Shown piece by piece: positions 4,348 through 16,393 of a stretch of 21,187 nucleotides of DNA. Position 1 is the first letter of the stretch. Each line of letters begins with the position of its first letter. The stretch is from a virus. The translations under genes were made by a program, and so were the position numbers. A model generated the notes under the pieces. The model saw only the letters and a list, made by a program, of their open reading frames with translations. It made no database searches and was not told the origin of the DNA. Location: the IMG/VR virus record IMGVR_UViG_3300025889_001129, positions 1 to 21,187 of that record, one strand, 5' to 3'.

Positions 4348-5295
4348 ATGAGAAATGTATTTGAGCCTGTAAAGGTTAATGGTAAGTTAGTAGCAAAGTG
4401 TATTGAGACTGGTAGCATTGCACCGGCGGATAAAATCAGAGATGTGCAGATCCGCAATGCATTCAAAAATAGCGAAGTGTTGGCAGTGGATCCAGAGTCA
4501 GGTCGAGTAACCAGATTGTCGGCTAGCATCTTCGGCAAGCAGACAAGCAGTGAGCCAACCAAAATGAATTTCTTGCAGGTTGTGACAAAAAGAGATCCAC
4601 AGGTAATGTTCAGCAATTTAGAGCGTCTTACTAAAATGGTAGCACGCGGAATCCAGCCAAGCTTATTAGTTACCGGAGGTCCTGGATTAGGTAAGACATA
4701 CCTAGTAAAGCAGACATTGACAGAATCCGGATTGCGCGAAAGTTATGACTTTGTGCATTTCAAAGGACGTAGCACAGCAGCCGGGATGTTTATCACATTG
4801 TACCAGAACAGCGACAAGGTTATAGTGTTTGACGATTGTGATAGCATATTCAAAGACGCAGATGCAGTTAACATGTTGAAGGCAGCATTAGACAGTTATG
4901 ACACTCGCAAAATCAGTTACCTGACAAGCAAGCCGCTTAAAGATGAGATGGGCGATCCAATTCCAACCTCATTCGAGTTTACCGGTAAAGTGATATTCAT
5001 TTCAAATATATCTCAGTCAGCAATGGATGAGGCAATCAAGTCTCGTAGCTTCGTGTCTGACATCTCAATGAACACCGAGCAAATGTTTACTCGCATTGAG
5101 CAGCTAATGACAAAAATGGAGCCGGGTATTCCAGAGCAAGCAAAAGAGTCCGCTTTACAGATAATGAAGCGCCTCAACACAAAATACTCCGGAGTGGAGA
5201 TCAACCTGCGCAGCTTCATCAAAGCTTCCCGCATCTGTGCAATGGGCTTTGACAATCCTGAGGCAATGGTAGCAGAGCAGATTATAGTATCGTAA
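4348..5295 (+). CDS. AAA-family ATPase
   Basis: The protein has 315 residues. Walker A is GGPGLGKT (110-117) and Walker B is VIVFDDCD (158-165). A sensor-1-like Asn is at 220 (VIFISN), and an SRS at 232-234 provides a candidate arginine finger. The first 85 residues form a separate N-terminal domain, and the last 70 a helical lid (GVEINLRSFIKASRICAMGF). This is the single-domain AAA layout seen in many large phages. The substrate is not evident: replication loading, proteolysis or remodelling all remain possible. It is a single-gene unit with its own promoter and a stable hairpin downstream (5315-5344). The minus-strand frame over its 3' end is a shadow. Confidence 0.85.
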   Translation: MRNVFEPVKVNGKLVAKCIETGSIAPADKIRDVQIRNAFKNSEVLAVDPESGRVTRLSASIFGKQTSSEPTKMNFLQVVTKRDPQVMFSNLERLTKMVARGIQPSLLVTGGPGLGKTYLVKQTLTESGLRESYDFVHFKGRSTAAGMFITLYQNSDKVIVFDDCDSIFKDADAVNMLKAALDSYDTRKISYLTSKPLKDEMGDPIPTSFEFTGKVIFISNISQSAMDEAIKSRSFVSDISMNTEQMFTRIEQLMTKMEPGIPEQAKESALQIMKRLNTKYSGVEINLRSFIKASRICAMGFDNPEAMVAEQIIVS

Positions 5296-5941: not shown

Positions 5942-5963
5942 CATATATAACATGCAGGTGCGA

Positions 5964-5988
5964 GGGGGGCTTAATAGCCCCCTTTTTT
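5964..5988 (+). terminator. Strong rho-independent terminator
   Basis: GGGGGCT (5965-5971) pairs with AGCCCCC (5976-5982), followed by TTTTTT (5983-5988). It lies 22 nt after the last gene of the left block. Confidence 0.85.
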
Positions 5989-6025
5989 ACTGAGCGGGGA
6001 GGGGGTAGCATATAGGGCCAAAACA

Positions 6026-6063
6026 GGGGAGGGGGAGGGGGTTAAATAGGGGGGTGGGGAGGG
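6026..6063 (+). other. G-quadruplex-forming G-run cluster
   Basis: Runs of 4, 5, 5, 6, 4 and 3 guanines (6026-6029, 6031-6035, 6037-6041, 6049-6054, 6056-6059, 6061-6063) are separated by loops of 1-7 nt. This meets the usual G4 pattern of four or more runs of at least three G with short loops. It is exceptional in this AT-rich sequence. Confidence 0.75.
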
Positions 6064-6190
6064 TTTCATTAACACCCCCGTATATAGGTGGTGATATTGG
6101 GTGGTTATATCTATTTTTCTAGCACGGGTAAGATTTTTGCTATATAGGTGCTCTTTATTAGAATATACAATGTATATAATAGTATAATAC

Positions 6191-6249: not shown

Positions 6250-6263
6250 CATATTTATTAATA
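6250..6263 (+). promoter_or_regulatory. Late-type AT motif at the start of the kinase-like gene
   Basis: ATATTTATTAATAT directly abuts the ATG at 6265. If it is a -10 element the message would be leaderless, so the real promoter may lie slightly upstream. Confidence 0.35.
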
Positions 6264-6264
6264 T

Positions 6265-7032
6265 ATGATACGATTACGAGATTTAATAACGGAAACCACG
6301 CATGCGGAGGTATATGACTATCTGCGGCAACACATCGATCGCATTGCGGCCGAGCATGCAGAAACACCAGCACGCAAGCTAGGTTCAGGATATTGGGGTG
6401 AAGCTTGGCTGATGCAGTCAGGGCGTGTTCTCAAATTCACAGCGGACCCTAATGAAGTGGCTTTGGCTGCTAGAACGTCACGTAGACCAGCGTCTCCACA
6501 CTTAATAGGAGTATATTCGGTTCGGCCGATCACCGGGATTCCTTTAAAGGATCCAAACACCTTGTATGATGATCCCGCAGAGTGGCAATCGGGACGTTAC
6601 GGAGCTCGTGGATATTATGTGATTCATCAGGATGGTATTACTCCTTTAAGTGAATATGGCGTCACACTCGAATTCGCATACAATTCTTTATACACTGCGA
6701 TATTCAGTGGCGGATGGACCACAGAGCGCCTGTTGCAGCGTATCGAGCGAATGAATTATTCGAATCGGGACGCGGAGCTGTTGCAACGCATCGTGTCCCA
6801 AGCTGACGGTATACGACGTGATATACGCAGATTCGGAGTTAACTTCACCGAAGCTCATTCAGGCAATGTGGGATTCAATGCATCAGGTAACTTTGTGATT
6901 TATGACATGCAAGCCATGCAGGGAGCCCCAGGAGTAAAACCAAGCAATTTAGGTAAGCCGATCAACATGCAGCAAATTGCGCCTGTGTACACCACAGACG
7001 GAATCGATACACCAGATGATCCCAACATGTAA
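6265..7032 (+). CDS. Leader-tagged protein-kinase-like enzyme, probably head-packaged
   Basis: The protein has 255 residues. Residues 1-10 are MIRLRDLITE, a T4 capsid-targeting-like leader with an (I/L)xE cleavage motif after E10. The rest looks like the kinase/aminoglycoside-phosphotransferase fold. A glycine loop is at 40-45 (GSGYWG), a VAIK-type Lys at 57 (RVLKF) and a candidate helix-C Glu at 64. A hinge follows (GYYVIHQDGITPL). The catalytic-loop-like segment is EAHSGNVGF (196-204), with the metal-binding Asn at 201, and a DFG-type Asp is at 214 (VIYDMQ). The usual catalytic Asp is replaced by Glu196, so activity could be altered. By analogy with T4 Alt, a packaged enzyme injected with the DNA, it could modify host proteins early; this is inference. 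GC content is higher than in the surrounding genes. Confidence 0.65.
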   Translation: MIRLRDLITETTHAEVYDYLRQHIDRIAAEHAETPARKLGSGYWGEAWLMQSGRVLKFTADPNEVALAARTSRRPASPHLIGVYSVRPITGIPLKDPNTLYDDPAEWQSGRYGARGYYVIHQDGITPLSEYGVTLEFAYNSLYTAIFSGGWTTERLLQRIERMNYSNRDAELLQRIVSQADGIRRDIRRFGVNFTEAHSGNVGFNASGNFVIYDMQAMQGAPGVKPSNLGKPINMQQIAPVYTTDGIDTPDDPNM

Positions 7033-7045
7033 ACACTGCGAGGTT

Positions 7046-7059
7046 ATATTTATATTAAA
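7046..7059 (+). promoter_or_regulatory. Late-type promoter motif ATATTTATATTAAA
   Basis: Sits 22 nt before the ATG at 7082 in the intergenic gap. No TTG or TAG lies 20 bp upstream, unlike the cassette promoters. Confidence 0.5.
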
Positions 7060-7081
7060 CCATTATTAAAACACATACAAC

Positions 7082-7420
7082 ATGAAAAACATTTTAACAG
7101 AAAACATGCGCAGGTTTGGTACCAAGAATTTGCGTGAACAAACCGAAGACGTGACACGTGTAGGTGTGTCAGAGATCAAGAATGCAAAGATTGATGGTAA
7201 CACCATGACATTCAAAGCTGGCGATCTAGATGAAGACACCTTCCTCGATCTCTCTGACATGGTTCATCCCGACACTCAAATTCAATTGAAAAATATTAAA
7301 CACAACCCTGCTACACCAACCACCGCAGAAAGATACACTGTATCTAGTATCAATGATATAGTTGCAGATTTTGACTACGATCTTGCGAAGGAAAGACTTT
7401 TATTCTACTTCAATCAATAA
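7082..7420 (+). CDS. Leader-tagged protein of unknown function (ENMxRFxxKNLxE class), 112 residues
   Basis: The N-terminus reads MKNILTENMRRFGTKNLREQ. The block N-(I/L)-L-x-E-N-M-x-R-F-x-x-K-N-L-x-E is shared with the minus-strand protein at 14742-15266, whose remainder is unrelated. Two possible prohead-protease sites follow the (I/L)xE pattern (after E7 and after E19). The rest is acidic and beta-rich (IDGNTMTFKAGDLDEDTFLDL) with no recognised fold. It lies between two other leader-tagged genes, 18 nt upstream of the next, with a late-type motif in front. I infer it is carried in the head. Confidence 0.65.
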   Translation: MKNILTENMRRFGTKNLREQTEDVTRVGVSEIKNAKIDGNTMTFKAGDLDEDTFLDLSDMVHPDTQIQLKNIKHNPATPTTAERYTVSSINDIVADFDYDLAKERLLFYFNQ

Positions 7421-7438
7421 ACCAAATTAATAAACAAC

Positions 7439-7765
7439 ATGATACGATTAAAAAACATTATCACGGAGACGTCACTAAGCGATGACGACTTGCTAGACAT
7501 CATATTAACATACACCAAAGACCCCGAAGATGCAGAGGCTGCCCTTGCAAGCTATCGAGAAACAGGAGATTTCGGTGACGCGGCAATTAGCTCTAACGTG
7601 CAGCGTGACCCTCGATTCCGAGCTGAGTCTGAGACCGGTGGCGCTGGTGCACGACTCGCCGCTGCTGTGATAGAGCGCGCGCGCCGAGCTATGCGCAGCA
7701 TGAGTGATGCTGAGGTTGCTGAGTTTCGTGAGCACATCGCCCAAGCATTCGACATGAAGTTGTAG
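7439..7765 (+). CDS. Leader-tagged protein of unknown function, 108 residues
   Basis: Starts MIRLKNIITETSLSDDDLLD. Residues 1-10 fit the shared leader, with a cleavage-type ITE at 8-10. The mature part is helical and charged, with alanine-, arginine- and glutamate-rich stretches (ARLAAAVIERARRAMRSMS). A motif DPEDAEAALASYRETGDFGDAA resembles no enzyme site I know. The local sequence contains GCGCGCGCC and is much more GC-rich than the window average, hinting at recent acquisition. It follows the previous tagged gene after 18 nt, and two 27-bp repeats lie just after its stop. Confidence 0.6.
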   Translation: MIRLKNIITETSLSDDDLLDIILTYTKDPEDAEAALASYRETGDFGDAAISSNVQRDPRFRAESETGGAGARLAAAVIERARRAMRSMSDAEVAEFREHIAQAFDMKL

Positions 7766-7769
7766 TGCC

Positions 7770-7796
7770 GACGTGCTGCTGGTATAGTCCTGGAAG
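7770..7796 (+). repeat. 27-bp direct repeat, copy 1
   Basis: A 27-bp unit beginning GACGTGCTGCTGG and ending TCCTGGAAG, repeated exactly at 7805-7831. It lies 5 nt after the stop of the preceding gene. No tRNA-like fold or simple hairpin is evident within one unit. Confidence 0.85.
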
Positions 7797-7804
7797 TGTG
7801 ACCT

Positions 7805-7831
7805 GACGTGCTGCTGGTATAGTCCTGGAAG
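7805..7831 (+). repeat. 27-bp direct repeat, copy 2
   Basis: Exact copy of 7770-7796 at a 35-bp period. A short hairpin (GGACGT ... ACGTTC, 7831-7846, one G-U) begins at its last base. Confidence 0.85.
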
Positions 7832-7855
7832 GACGTACTAACGTTCTACCGCACT

Positions 7856-7871
7856 ACATATTTATATTAAA
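7856..7871 (+). promoter_or_regulatory. Late-type promoter motif ACATATTTATATTAAA
   Basis: Full 16-bp form of the one-part motif, identical to that at 16393-16408. Drives the membrane protein gene at about 7882/7920. Confidence 0.5.
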
Positions 7872-7919
7872 GCAATCTGTCATGGGGTAATAACTGAGTT
7901 TCGATTAAAATTAGCAGCG

Positions 7920-8339
7920 GTGGCACTTGCTGTGTTAACACCGTTGTTAATGATACTGTGTTATGGCCCGTTACCTTCCATTTCAAAATATTGGGAAACT
8001 GAGTGGCAACCGCTGTTCATACTTTCCAATGCAGTAACCAGCTATTTCTTTTTCACACTACCTAAATGGAAACTTCCGGCGGTATTCCTGATGCTGCTAA
8101 CTGCATTTTCCGTGCAGGAATACCAATACATCCACAATCTGTTTGCAATTGCCTTCTTTTTGAGTTCGTACTGGGTATTGTGGTATTCTAAACGTTATCC
8201 GGTGTTTTTACTGCAGTATGGAGTTGGTATTATTGTTATGCCTTTTAGTTTTTTATGGGGAGAAGTGATTTCTATCAGTGCATTGAGCTTGTATCATTTA
8301 ACCGTATTAATTCGATTGCAACAGCTAACTAATCGATGA
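7920..8339 (+). CDS. Multi-pass membrane protein, start uncertain
   Basis: From the GTG at 7920 the protein has 139 residues with about four to five hydrophobic segments: VLTPLLMILCYG, LFILSNAVTSYFFFTL, AVFLMLLTAF, NLFAIAFFLSSYWVLWY, and YGVGIIVMPFSFLW with ISALSLYHLTVLI. The frame stays open upstream and reads VITEFRLKLAAVALAV before the GTG. An ATG at 7882 sits one frame away, separated by a GGGG run; one extra G would give MGVITEFRLKLAAV as an ordinary start with a basic residue pair before the first helix. The gene lies among leader-tagged genes but lacks that leader. A holin-like or membrane-exclusion role is possible, but no family is recognised. Confidence 0.6.
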   Translation: MALAVLTPLLMILCYGPLPSISKYWETEWQPLFILSNAVTSYFFFTLPKWKLPAVFLMLLTAFSVQEYQYIHNLFAIAFFLSSYWVLWYSKRYPVFLLQYGVGIIVMPFSFLWGEVISISALSLYHLTVLIRLQQLTNR

Positions 8340-8344
8340 CTCGT

Positions 8345-8358
8345 ACATATTTATATAT
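8345..8358 (+). promoter_or_regulatory. Late-type promoter motif ACATATTTATATAT
   Basis: Variant of the one-part motif, 13 nt before the ATG at 8372 and overlapping no coding sequence if 8372 is the start. Confidence 0.45.
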
Positions 8359-8371
8359 AAAAAAGATTATC

Positions 8372-8920
8372 ATGATTAAACTTAAAAACATGTTAACAGA
8401 AGAAGGTATTATAGAAAAACTACCAAAAGACATTCAATCTGCAATCAATCGATTGCGGACAAAATGGGGTGTTATAATTACTGATCGTCACATCGAAAAA
8501 GAATTCGATCAAGAAGGAGGTACTAGACCAGATAATGGTAGTGTAGATCCAATTGCCGAGAAACAAATACTCAAATTAATAGCAGCAGTTAAACAAAAAT
8601 TTCCATTAATCAAAAACCAACCAGGTATCATATCTAGCTACCGTAGTTACATGGCCCAGGCAGATAATTTTGGACGTAAAGTCAATTCCGGCCGGTCTAT
8701 CGATAATGTACAATCGGCAAATACAATACCTGGATTTTCACAACATCATACCGGTAAAGCTTTCGATATATTCAGTGTAAAATCTGCGTTTTGGAATAAA
8801 CACAAAGATGTAGCAGACTATATCAAAGAAATTGCACCAAAATATGGTTTCGATGTTACATATAAAACACAAGGAACATTAAGAATAGCTGAGCCATGGC
8901 ATTTATATTATACTAATTAG
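8372..8920 (+). CDS. Leader-tagged M15-family peptidase (D-Ala-D-Ala carboxypeptidase-like)
   Basis: The start at 8372 is chosen because it gives the shared leader (MIKLKNMLTE) and lies after a late-type motif; the longer frame from 8336 would run through that motif. The protein has 182 residues. The M15 zinc site is complete: SQHHTGKAFD at 123-132 (Ser123, His125, Asp132) and EPWH at 174-177 (Glu174, His177). SSYRS (88-92) is the usual upstream Arg motif. Such enzymes cut peptide cross-links or stem peptides of peptidoglycan in the periplasm. No signal peptide is visible; the leader suggests packaging in the head, while an endolysin role is an alternative. The neighbouring multi-pass membrane protein is just upstream. 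Confidence 0.8.
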   Translation: MIKLKNMLTEEGIIEKLPKDIQSAINRLRTKWGVIITDRHIEKEFDQEGGTRPDNGSVDPIAEKQILKLIAAVKQKFPLIKNQPGIISSYRSYMAQADNFGRKVNSGRSIDNVQSANTIPGFSQHHTGKAFDIFSVKSAFWNKHKDVADYIKEIAPKYGFDVTYKTQGTLRIAEPWHLYYTN

Positions 8921-8931
8921 CAGTGACACAC

Positions 8932-9234
8932 ATGATACGATTACGAGACATATTGACAGAAACGGCACATGAAAATGTGGTTGATTTGGTTCGTGATAAT
9001 TTTGAAACCATACTAGGTAACTACGAAGAATGGTTAGAAGGACAGTTGGATGACTTGGTAGATAATGAAGACATAACTGAGTGGAATCGTTATGACACTT
9101 TAATGAGTATGCGAGACAATTCAGATAGTCCGGAAGAATTTATAGGATATTTAAAGTATCGACACAAAATGTTTGATACCGCACAATTATATCAGTTTAT
9201 TGAACGTTACCTAGATTACCAGAATATTGCATGA
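8932..9234 (+). CDS. Leader-tagged acidic protein of unknown function, 100 residues
   Basis: The ATG at 8932 is preferred over a GTG at 8923 because it starts the leader MIRLRDILTETAHEN exactly. The first 30 residues match those of the kinase-like protein at 6265 (T-x-H-x-x-V-x-D-x-x-R after the leader), and the first 17 bases of the two genes are identical, which points to duplication of a leader segment. The rest is acidic and helical (WLEGQLDDLVDNEDITEW, QLYQFIERYLDYQ). No fold is recognised. It overlaps the next gene by 4 nt (ATGA), so the two are translationally coupled. Confidence 0.65.
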   Translation: MIRLRDILTETAHENVVDLVRDNFETILGNYEEWLEGQLDDLVDNEDITEWNRYDTLMSMRDNSDSPEEFIGYLKYRHKMFDTAQLYQFIERYLDYQNIA

Positions 9235-9389
9235 TTAGTTTACGGGACATATTATCTGAAAAGAAGATAACTAAAAAATCTGATTTTGATAGAGCCGAAT
9301 ATTATAAAGAATATATCAAGCAGCTTGTGCCAGAAACATTTAAAGTTGAAATGAAGGATAGTGAAATAACTATTAAAATTAAAAATTAA
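9231..9389 (+). CDS. Leader-tagged small protein, 52 residues
   Basis: ATG at 9231 overlaps the previous stop (ATGA); TAA at 9387-9389. It begins MISLRDILSEKKITKKSDFD, the same leader form with LSE at 8-10. The rest is lysine-rich with a C-terminal amphipathic strand (EMKDSEITIKIKN). It is the last member of the leader-tagged run and is followed by two hairpins, the second a strong terminator. Cleavage after E10 would leave 42 residues. Confidence 0.65.
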   Translation: MISLRDILSEKKITKKSDFDRAEYYKEYIKQLVPETFKVEMKDSEITIKIKN

Positions 9390-9393
9390 ACGC

Positions 9394-9413
9394 ACGTCTG
9401 CTACCTTAGACGT
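9394..9413 (+). other. Short hairpin before the terminator
   Basis: ACGTCT (9394-9399) and AGACGT (9408-9413) form a 6-bp stem with an 8-nt loop just after the stop at 9389. It could help define the 3' end. Confidence 0.45.
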
Positions 9414-9424
9414 TTAGTTGCAAG

Positions 9425-9452
9425 ACCCGGGGTATTTCACCCGGGTTTTTTT
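9425..9452 (+). terminator. Strong rho-independent terminator
   Basis: ACCCGGG (9425-9431) pairs with CCCGGGT (9440-9446) around an 8-nt loop, followed by TTTTTT. It ends the leader-tagged operon. Confidence 0.9.
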
Positions 9453-9460
9453 ATGCACAT

Positions 9461-9488: not shown

Positions 9489-9851
9489 ATGATAGAAAAA
9501 TTTATTTCCACTCTGTTTGCAAGCCGGACTCAGGCACATATATATCATTTGCAAACAAAATCTTATGCAGAGCATATGGCATTGCAAGAATATTATGAAG
9601 GCATCGTAGATATGATAGATGCAATTGTCGAAGCATATCAAGGTAAGCATGGAATTATTAAAAACTATACTGCTCCTGCTAAATTTGAGAATTATGGAGA
9701 CAAGAACGTTGTTAATTATTTTAAAGGATTAGCAATGTTTGCTGAAAAGGCATATGATAAATTACCAGAAGATTCATATTTACAAAATCTATATGACGGA
9801 GTAATTGAGTTAATTTATTCTACAGTATATAAATTGGAAAATTTAAAATGA
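9489..9851 (+). CDS. Helical phage protein, DUF5856/Dps-ferritin-like
   Basis: The protein has 120 residues and begins MIEKFISTLFASRTQAHIYH. The pattern of a first helix with HIYHLQTKSYAEHMALQEYY, then EGIVDMIDAIVEAYQG, and a last helix NLYDGVIELIYSTVYKL resembles small ferritin-like or Dps-like bundles; I recall related phage proteins classed as DUF5856. Conserved His and Glu residues (H17, H20, H28) could be metal ligands, but without structure this is uncertain. It is first in a tight operon, overlapping the next gene by 4 nt. Confidence 0.55.
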   Translation: MIEKFISTLFASRTQAHIYHLQTKSYAEHMALQEYYEGIVDMIDAIVEAYQGKHGIIKNYTAPAKFENYGDKNVVNYFKGLAMFAEKAYDKLPEDSYLQNLYDGVIELIYSTVYKLENLK

Positions 9852-14741: not shown

Positions 14742-15266
14742 TTATAATGTATTTTGAATTTTTTGAATTTCTGGTACGTTTTTATATGTATTTGGATCCT
14801 GAAGTGCATTAATCATAGCCGGTTGATTATTTTGTTGTCCGTCAATTTCGAATGTTGCGTTTTTTAAATCGGTGTGTTGCGGCCACAAACGTATTTCATC
14901 TTTATATATTATTAATCCTATTTTAGCTAAGTCAGTGTTTTTATTGCTGGCAGGTTGATATGTAGTTAATTGAAGGGTAACATATGGCTGTCCATTTTTA
15001 GATTTACCCAACATTTTTTCTTGCAATCTCCATGTATCCTTTGTATTGGTATTAGGATTTGTAACTAATAACTCACCAGTTGCGAACCCCGGGATTGTTA
15101 TATTTGTTAGTGGGAACTTTTTATTATGTTTAATATCCATAGCTTCGATATCATCCTGTTCCGTAATAATCTCAGCCAATTTCACAATTTTACGCTTAGT
15201 AGTTTCGGAAAGGTTTTTAGCTTTGAATCTTAGCATGTTTTCTGCTAGAAGGTTTTTCTTTTTCAT
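14742..15266 (-). CDS. Leader-tagged protein on the minus strand (ENMxRFxxKNLxE class), 174 residues
   Basis: The N-terminus KKKNLLAENMLRFKAKNLSE matches the start of the protein at 7082-7420 (N-L-L-x-E-N-M-x-R-F-x-x-K-N-L-x-E). Several (I/L)xE sites could be cut by a prohead protease (LLAE, NLSE, IITE). The remainder is unlike the other protein: a beta-rich middle (FPLTNITIPGFATGELLVTN) and an Asn/Gln-rich end (EIDGQQNNQPAMINALQDPN). It is the only gene on the minus strand in the window, has a late-type motif in its own orientation (15292-15305), and ends at the shared terminator. Function unknown; I infer packaging in the head. Confidence 0.7.
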   Translation of the reverse strand: MKKKNLLAENMLRFKAKNLSETTKRKIVKLAEIITEQDDIEAMDIKHNKKFPLTNITIPGFATGELLVTNPNTNTKDTWRLQEKMLGKSKNGQPYVTLQLTTYQPASNKNTDLAKIGLIIYKDEIRLWPQHTDLKNATFEIDGQQNNQPAMINALQDPNTYKNVPEIQKIQNTL

Positions 15267-15373: not shown

Positions 15374-16393
15374 ATGATTAGATTTGGTTATTGTTGTATC
15401 AATATGACGCTCGGCAAGCAAGATATCCGTACGGGTCGCACCATGATTGAGCGAAAATTTAAGCAAGGCGGTATGCAGTTAGCGTCTGATATATCTCTTA
15501 AGAATGCAAAAGATTTACTTCCTATACTGCAATGGAATGAGCGTAACGGCATTCGATTGTTTCGTATAGGTTCTGAAATATTCCCTCGTTGGAATCATTA
15601 CGTGTTAGAAGACCTACCAGACATCGAAGAGATCAAGCATCATCTCCGAGCAGCAGGTGACTTCGCTCGAGCACATGGCCATCGACTAACTACGCATCCA
15701 GGTCCATTTCACATACTAGGTTCGCCTAAACGTGACGTTGTTACTAACAGTATCATTGGCTTAGAACGACACAGTGAAATGTTTGACCTTATGGGTTATG
15801 AGCCTAGTTTTGACAATCTTATCAATATACATATCGGCGCAGCATATGGCGACAAAGAGTCTACTATTTCTAGATGGTTAGCTAACTATGCAATGCTATC
15901 TGATGAACTTCAAGCTAGGTTAGTGCTGGAGAATGACGACAAGGCTTCGTTATACTCAGTTCGAGATCTGTATGAGATGGTGCATGTACATACCGATATT
16001 CCAATCACGTTTGACTATTGGCATCACACTTTCAATACCGGCGATTTGTCCGAGCGAGAAGCATTCTTTATGGCACGAGAGACTTGGGAAAAGCATGGCG
16101 TTACTCAGTGCACTCATTACTCTGAGTCTCGTAGACGCGAGAAGCAACTTCTTATCGAGCGAATGTTTGAACACCATGGTATCAGCATGGACAATATAGA
16201 TCAATGGCCTACCTTCCACAAAGAATACAAGGCATTCACCAAGATCAAAGAGCAGGCGCATTCTGACTATATTGTCGACTTGCCGAATACATACGGTGTT
16301 GCAGATTTAGATATCGAAGTAGAAGCCAAGGCAAAAGAGCAGACATTGCAGCAGGCAGGTATTGAATGTTGTCAGCAGCAAATACTAGTGTAA
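15374..16393 (+). CDS. uvsE: UV damage endonuclease (UvsE/UvdE family)
   Basis: The protein has 339 residues and cuts 5' to UV photoproducts, starting alternative excision repair in the cytoplasm. Family motifs appear in order: IRFGYCCINMTL at the start, then KNAKDLLPILQWNERNGIRL with FRIGSEIFPRW, LTTHPGPFHILGSP, DNLINIHIGAAYGDK, RLVLENDDK, and ITFDYWHHTFN; His, Glu and Asp in these motifs are the expected metal ligands of the TIM barrel. The last 40 residues (KAKEQTLQQAGIECC) form an extra tail. It has its own promoter and is a single-gene unit. For a T4-type phage, which usually uses DenV for this task, it is a functional replacement. Confidence 0.88.
   Translation: MIRFGYCCINMTLGKQDIRTGRTMIERKFKQGGMQLASDISLKNAKDLLPILQWNERNGIRLFRIGSEIFPRWNHYVLEDLPDIEEIKHHLRAAGDFARAHGHRLTTHPGPFHILGSPKRDVVTNSIIGLERHSEMFDLMGYEPSFDNLINIHIGAAYGDKESTISRWLANYAMLSDELQARLVLENDDKASLYSVRDLYEMVHVHTDIPITFDYWHHTFNTGDLSEREAFFMARETWEKHGVTQCTHYSESRRREKQLLIERMFEHHGISMDNIDQWPTFHKEYKAFTKIKEQAHSDYIVDLPNTYGVADLDIEVEAKAKEQTLQQAGIECCQQQILV

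Follow-up and report, generated by a model that had tools for sequence, protein, structure and literature searches.

We describe here a family of viral proteins that open with nearly the same ten residues and are otherwise mostly unrelated. They were found in a 21,187-nucleotide stretch of DNA from a T4-like phage, referred to as the window (IMG/VR record IMGVR_UViG_3300025889_001129, positions 1 to 21,187), where most of their genes form a run between 6265 and 9389. This leader is probably a capsid-targeting propeptide of the T4 type, expanded into a system of swappable cargo genes that often have two constant ends. Packaging of the proteins in the head and cleavage of the leader are strongly, if indirectly, indicated. 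Delivery into the host would be a step beyond packaging; injection of the enzymatic members is suggested by the types of cargo and by the parallel to Alt and IPI of T4.

Five genes of the run, all on the plus strand, have the short leader at their start codons, as a preliminary description of this DNA had reported. They encode a 255-amino-acid kinase-like protein that also bears a C-terminal tag (6265-7032, leader MIRLRDLITE at 6265-6294), a 108-amino-acid protein (7439-7765, MIRLKNIITE at 7439-7468), a 182-amino-acid VanY/M15 peptidase (8372-8920, MIKLKNMLTE at 8372-8401), and proteins of 100 (8932-9234, MIRLRDILTE at 8932-8961) and 52 amino acids (9231-9389, MISLRDILSE at 9231-9260), the 108-, 100- and 52-residue products being of unknown kind. 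Residue 10 thus closes ITE, ITE, LTE, LTE and LSE, respectively. Past the leader, the five sort into separate cargo clusters with no mutual resemblance, in agreement with the earlier statement that the cargo is mostly unrelated. The leader starts of 8372 and 8932 are internal to longer, mechanically called open reading frames (ORFs). The start at 8372 is better than the ATG at 8336, because the latter reading would cross the promoter-like ATATTTATATATA at 8347. For 8932, the orthologue in G001 (92% identical), a syntenic 74-kb IMG/VR record that is the nearest large relative of the window, begins with MIRLRDILTE.

Scored as M(I/V)(R/K/S/L)(L/M)xx(I/L)(I/L)xE, the leader pattern opened 4 of the 44 ORFs of the window (8372 is uncounted, since the ORF list carries its longer version) and was found at none of 146 internal methionines. 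When three related genomes were added to the window, it was present at 23 of 468 ORF starts, compared with 0.004 expected from residue frequencies, and at 0 of 2228 internal methionines. Leaders therefore cannot be attributed to chance. A DNA scan of IMG/VR returned at least 83 matches, every one opening an ORF; these counts are lower bounds and, as the scan pattern used ATACG codons, biased to that codon use.

The preliminary description limited the set to these five genes, and its inventory was incomplete: it missed the tag on 6265, the hypervariability of the syntenic locus and a second class of leader. This extended class is represented in the window by a 112-amino-acid protein within the run (7082-7420, plus strand; MKNILTENMRRFGTKNLRE at 7082-7138) and by a 174-amino-acid protein outside it, on the minus strand (14742-15266), whose long leader MKKKNLLAENMLRFKAKNLSETTKRKIVKLAEIITE (15159-15266) has the form MKKKNLLAENMLRFKAKNLSE...LAEIITE. 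The fetched loci contained 40 distinct proteins of this class, and the (I/L)xE site often occurs two or three times in succession in their leaders. Hybrids such as MIRLKNILAENMLRFGPKNLSE show that the extended form is the short leader plus an extension. A signal peptide or membrane anchor was considered and rejected on inspection, as no hydrophobic run in the leader is long enough.

The leader resembles propeptides of T4. In the T4 record (slash, cut site), gp24 starts with MAKINELLRE/S, IPII and IPIII with MKTYQEFIAE/A and IPI with MKTFKEFTSTTTPVSTITE/A, while gp23 has FLTE65/A; gp67, gp68 and gp22 also bear such sites, gp22 several in series. The closest in sequence is the gp24 propeptide, with M at position 1, a basic residue at 3, an aliphatic one at 4, an acidic one at 6, LL at 7-8, a basic residue at 9 and E at 10, although gp24 is a shell protein and the leader proteins are variable cargo. 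The prohead protease of T4 cleaves off the first ten residues of gp24 (PMC9958956); the gp23 propeptide has 65 residues (PMC5694885). A ten-residue capsid-targeting sequence packages foreign proteins in T4 and is then cut off (PMC10229621).

A gp21-like protease, which the preliminary description suggested looking for elsewhere in the genome, was found in G001 (Peptidase_S77, E 9e-35), together with gp23, and gp21 was present in 21 out of 25 large related records. The gp21 of these phages starts with MSKQLIQDFITFNPLNTLNE/S or MNNPLLINVTPFKGLLTE/S; in gp23, LVKE/A, LVKE/S or IVSE/A occurs near residue 57 (slash, putative cut site). Sites of the same type in the gp21 and gp23 of the group are NTLNE, LLTE, LVKE and IVSE. 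The commonest leader protein (37 entries) is itself encoded in the prohead operon. Locus L193 contains, in this order, gp20, further genes, a 97-amino-acid gene, gp21, an 84-amino-acid gene, the leader gene (MIRLKDLLKE), DUF5856, a 62-amino-acid gene, a scaffold candidate and gp23, with gp20, gp21, DUF5856 and gp23 confirmed by Pfam. DUF5856 follows leader genes both in this operon (3149-3517 of L193) and in the window, where it lies directly after the run (9489-9851, plus strand; PF19174, 6.8e-23), and it may have a role in head assembly.

Comparison with G001 revealed that the leader is constant and the cargo swapped at the syntenic locus, of which the leader genes are the hypervariable part. 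Most of the compared non-leader genes are 53-93% identical between the two, and 9231 also has an orthologue in G001 (53% identical). No homologue of 7082, 7439, 8372 or 14742 was detected in G001, whose main locus holds different leader genes instead (MRLTSLITE, MIKLKRILTE, MISLKHIIE and MILLKQILNE); at the second locus, in the place of 14742, the leader genes start with MIRLKHLLIE, MIRLADILKE and MIRLKRILE. The GC content of 6265-8000 (except 7001-7500) is 0.45-0.50, above most of the window, which fits recent acquisition. By gp23, the closest cultured relatives are Flavobacterium phage immuto (54%), Microcystis phage Mel-JY01 (53%) and Rhodothermus phage RM378 (47%, partial), and a host from Bacteroidota is likely. 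Phage immuto (vB_FspM_immuto, NC_055915.1; host Flavobacterium sp. LMO8) encodes gp21 and has repeated leaders of its own: four proteins share the MENFDLKKFLVENKLTxNSKLLxE type, and two begin with MKKQILSEQFxRMQxLAGIITE.

After trimming of the leader, 142 leader proteins (some seen twice) grouped into 33 cargo clusters, so the same leader does occur on other, unrelated cargo in IMG/VR relatives, as the preliminary description had proposed to check. Most leader proteins have a single domain, and two-domain fusions are few (e.g. L158 and L166). The M15 peptidase named in that description was recovered with PF02557 (64.4 bits against a cut-off of 25; E 1.1e-17). Homologous M15 domains in other phages have different starts containing (I/L)xE, such as MGHIKNFTEFINE and MENLINEEIIRVKELMGILNE, or lie inside larger proteins. 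Pfam searches of the leader proteins also retrieved phage lysozyme, LysM and cupin. One protein with both leader and tag (L175) matched ART-PolyVal, a domain named for ADP-ribosyltransferase (ART), with 28.8 bits, just under the cut-off of 31.2; other ART-like and ParB-like assignments were made by eye only. The 100-residue domain of 8932 is modular, and a related domain is fused to other cargo, and tagged, in L158 and L239.

Two leader families appear kinase-like. In the protein encoded at 6265, GxGxxGxA, VLKFT, EAHSGNVG and YDM-type motifs are retained in three homologues, which also have leader and tag; homologues of 6265 were searched for in GenBank phages and IMG/VR, and none was found. 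The kinase-like assignment of 6265, which had been proposed before, is based on these motifs and on a related family. That related family, of 181 amino acids, yielded a kinase-fold model with a predicted local distance difference test (pLDDT) score of 78, in which residues 1-9 score below 50 and are unstructured. Its matches in the PDB included APH(2''), CK2, PRPK, RIO1 and similar kinases (best E 7e-4, query template modelling scores of 0.34-0.48), and we consider the kinase fold moderately supported by this model. A PDB sequence search with both families retrieved nothing significant, and an hhalign alignment of the two (probability 76, E 2e-5) was confined to the leader and the glycine loop, a match partly owed to the leader itself.

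Several leader proteins with different central parts also share their C-terminal ends: TTDGIDTPDDPNM in the 6265 protein (6991-7029, with the stop codon at 7030-7032), DASGIDTPGDPNM and DWSGIDTPADPDM. The tag GIDTPGDPNM, followed directly by a stop codon, was present in 33 distinct ORFs, including 6265, from the IMG/VR scan and all fetched loci. The 5' end is present for 30 of them, and all of these carry the leader: 28 start with ATG, L170 uses GTG, and in L176 the leader lies shortly upstream in a different frame. The remaining three are cut off by the end of their contig. Among the fully read genomes, C-terminal GIDTP was limited to leader proteins, and the tag pattern was absent from 84,980 GTDB genomes. 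A literature search with the letters of the tag or of the long leader gave no match. The GIDTP residues are fixed, with three codons used for Gly, three for Ile, four for Thr and four for Pro; since the synonymous sites vary freely, it is the peptide that is conserved. In the 239-amino-acid tagged ORF of L158, a DGHHRL cargo (ParB-like, by eye) meets an 8932-like domain at KYDAS, a stretch usually found just before the tag, and this junction looks like the footprint of cassette fusion or recombination.

The tag may be a second signal for loading, ejection or stability. We advance tentatively, as an idea that could well prove wrong, that the two ends form an address system, in which the leader would load cargo into the prohead and then be removed, and the tag would be retained on the mature protein as the second signal. 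Such a signal might serve in binding to the core or the DNA, in exit via the portal and tail, or in timing inside the host.

The leader genes may be expressed late. A late-promoter-like motif, ATATTTATWW, precedes 15 of 28 leader genes, as against 71 of the 446 other genes (p 1.2e-5; promoters are predicted). In the window, such motifs lie on the plus strand upstream of 6265 (ATATTTATTA, 6251-6260), 7082 (ATATTTATAT, 7046-7055) and 8372 (ATATTTATAT, 8347-8356). The early-like TTATATTTAA was found upstream of none of the leader genes, an absence that is not significant by itself (p 0.13). A TTATATTTAAGTATAATTAAAAAGATAGAG-like element stands before nearly every early-region gene of G001 (66800-74400, L125) and in the left part of the window, and is a likely early promoter.

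Taken as a capsid-targeting system, each cassette would comprise a late-promoter-like start and the constant leader at its 5' end, variable cargo and, in a subset, the C-terminal tag. Late in infection, the N-terminal ten residues would draw each leader protein into the prohead core, a gp21-type protease would cut past the glutamate of (I/L)xE, and the mature protein would remain in the head with the DNA. Enzymatic members (kinase-fold, ART-like and peptidase) would then, in all likelihood, pass into the next host cell along with the genome. The capsid-targeting set of the preliminary description is partly supported, as the evidence from sequence agrees with it: gp21 in relatives, a T4-like leader, a leader gene located between gp21 and gp23, swapped cargo, and ART-like or kinase-fold cargo. 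The term effectors, also used there, need not apply to all of these proteins.

Several observations weigh against this interpretation. The window is a 21-kb fragment that contains neither a head module nor a gp21 gene of its own, and a literature search found no virion proteome or cleavage data for this phage group. Ten residues are too few to establish homology of the leader with, or its descent from, that of T4, and in a few leaders the glutamate is at residue 9 and not 10. The conserved gene of the prohead operon and murein hydrolases such as the lysozymes are among the leader proteins and need not be injected effectors. The AlphaFold2 model of 6265, built from three sequences, was poor (pLDDT 46) and was not used.

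Three other explanations can be offered. The leader could mark scaffold-associated proteins of the prohead core for assembly, to be retained or degraded with no delivery into the host. That one leader family is a conserved gene of the gp21-gp23 operon, and that T4 gp67, gp68 and gp22 have comparable sites, speaks for such a role; we nevertheless hold it to be unlikely, as most of the cargo is hypervariable, partly enzymatic and unconserved between close relatives, unlike core proteins. The leader might instead dock proteins to the tail, the baseplate or a phage chaperone, the (I/L)xE ending being incidental. Some leader genes do lie among tail-region genes (G001 33157), and the murein hydrolases in the cargo are of a kind often located in tails. 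Considering, however, that the ending is retained while the residue preceding E varies freely, that longer leaders have serial (I/L)xE sites, as gp22 does, and that the leader matches the propeptides of T4 gp24 and the internal proteins, docking seems quite improbable.

Lastly, the constant ends could matter only as DNA, being recombination hotspots or translation-start sequences that travel with the cassettes and play no part in the protein itself. Leader DNA is strongly alike between genes (ATGATACGATTA), and the fusion junction of L158 falls in the tag region. This explanation is nonetheless the hardest to credit and has very little probability in our judgement, given that the residues of the tag are fixed while its synonymous sites vary and that several leader classes of different sequence have the same kind of ending.

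The capsid-targeting interpretation can be set against known systems. T4 IPI, IPII, IPIII and Alt likewise have a short N-terminal leader common to unrelated small proteins (with an IxE end in IPI-III), variable cargo, which in packaged Alt is an ART, and a gp21 protease in the phage (here, in relatives). They differ from the present system in scale and form: here there are about 5-10 leader genes per genome and at least 33 cargo clusters, the leader is MIRLKxLLxE, some leaders are extended and hold several sites, and a C-terminal tag is common to a subset of the proteins. To our knowledge, T4 has no such tag. Polyvalent proteins, predicted to be packaged and injected, have a repertoire that may overlap with the cargo described here (ART-PolyVal, peptidases and murein-directed enzymes), but carry many domains in a single large polypeptide, whereas here there is mostly one per gene, each with its own leader (PMC5512222). 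In the giant phages SPN3US and phiKZ, a related protease processes the N-terminal propeptides of ejection proteins behind xxE, in some cases at more than one position; those propeptides are long (often over 100 residues), with an AxE motif, and no 10-residue multi-cargo leader was reported there (PMC5694885). Judged by sequence, the system appears to work like T4 capsid targeting, with scale, cargo range, multi-site leaders and the C-terminal tag as what is new.

Other features of the window lie in or around the leader run. A very G-rich intergenic stretch (5960-6075, GGGGAGGGGG repeated) exactly separates early-type genes from the run, and an intrinsic-terminator-like hairpin with a T run closes it (9425-9452, plus strand; folding of 9390-9460 gave -26.7 kcal/mol, z -5.0). 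After 7439, a 35-nucleotide repeat (GACGTGCTGCTGGTATAGTCCTGGAAG...) is present in two tandem copies (7770-7839), and a related GTCCTGGAAGGAC hairpin follows a tagged gene in G001 (L024 5515-5527). No claim is made for a conserved 3' hairpin following the cassettes, since the candidate was strong in one flank (z -2.8), weak in others and different between subgroups. Inside the run, an ORF without leader encodes a small membrane-protein-like product (7920-8339; 71% identical in G001), possibly a lysis or membrane partner of the adjoining M15 gene. Elsewhere, the window encodes a protease-like protein (1688-2203, phrog_11227), an AAA ATPase that is also clamp-loader-like (4348-5295, phrog_1250) and an endonuclease (15374-16393, phrog_8420).

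If the capsid-targeting interpretation is right, a search for the leader alone would list candidate virion-packaged proteins, mostly of unknown function, for many uncultured T4-like phages. The principle of the T4 internal proteins would widen from three small proteins and Alt to dozens of types, including kinase-fold ones, and new packaging leaders would be added, along with a C-terminal tag that has a testable job. Should the two ends indeed act as an address system, constant ends around variable effectors would provide a plug-in platform for delivery, through which enzymes of host takeover could be exchanged.

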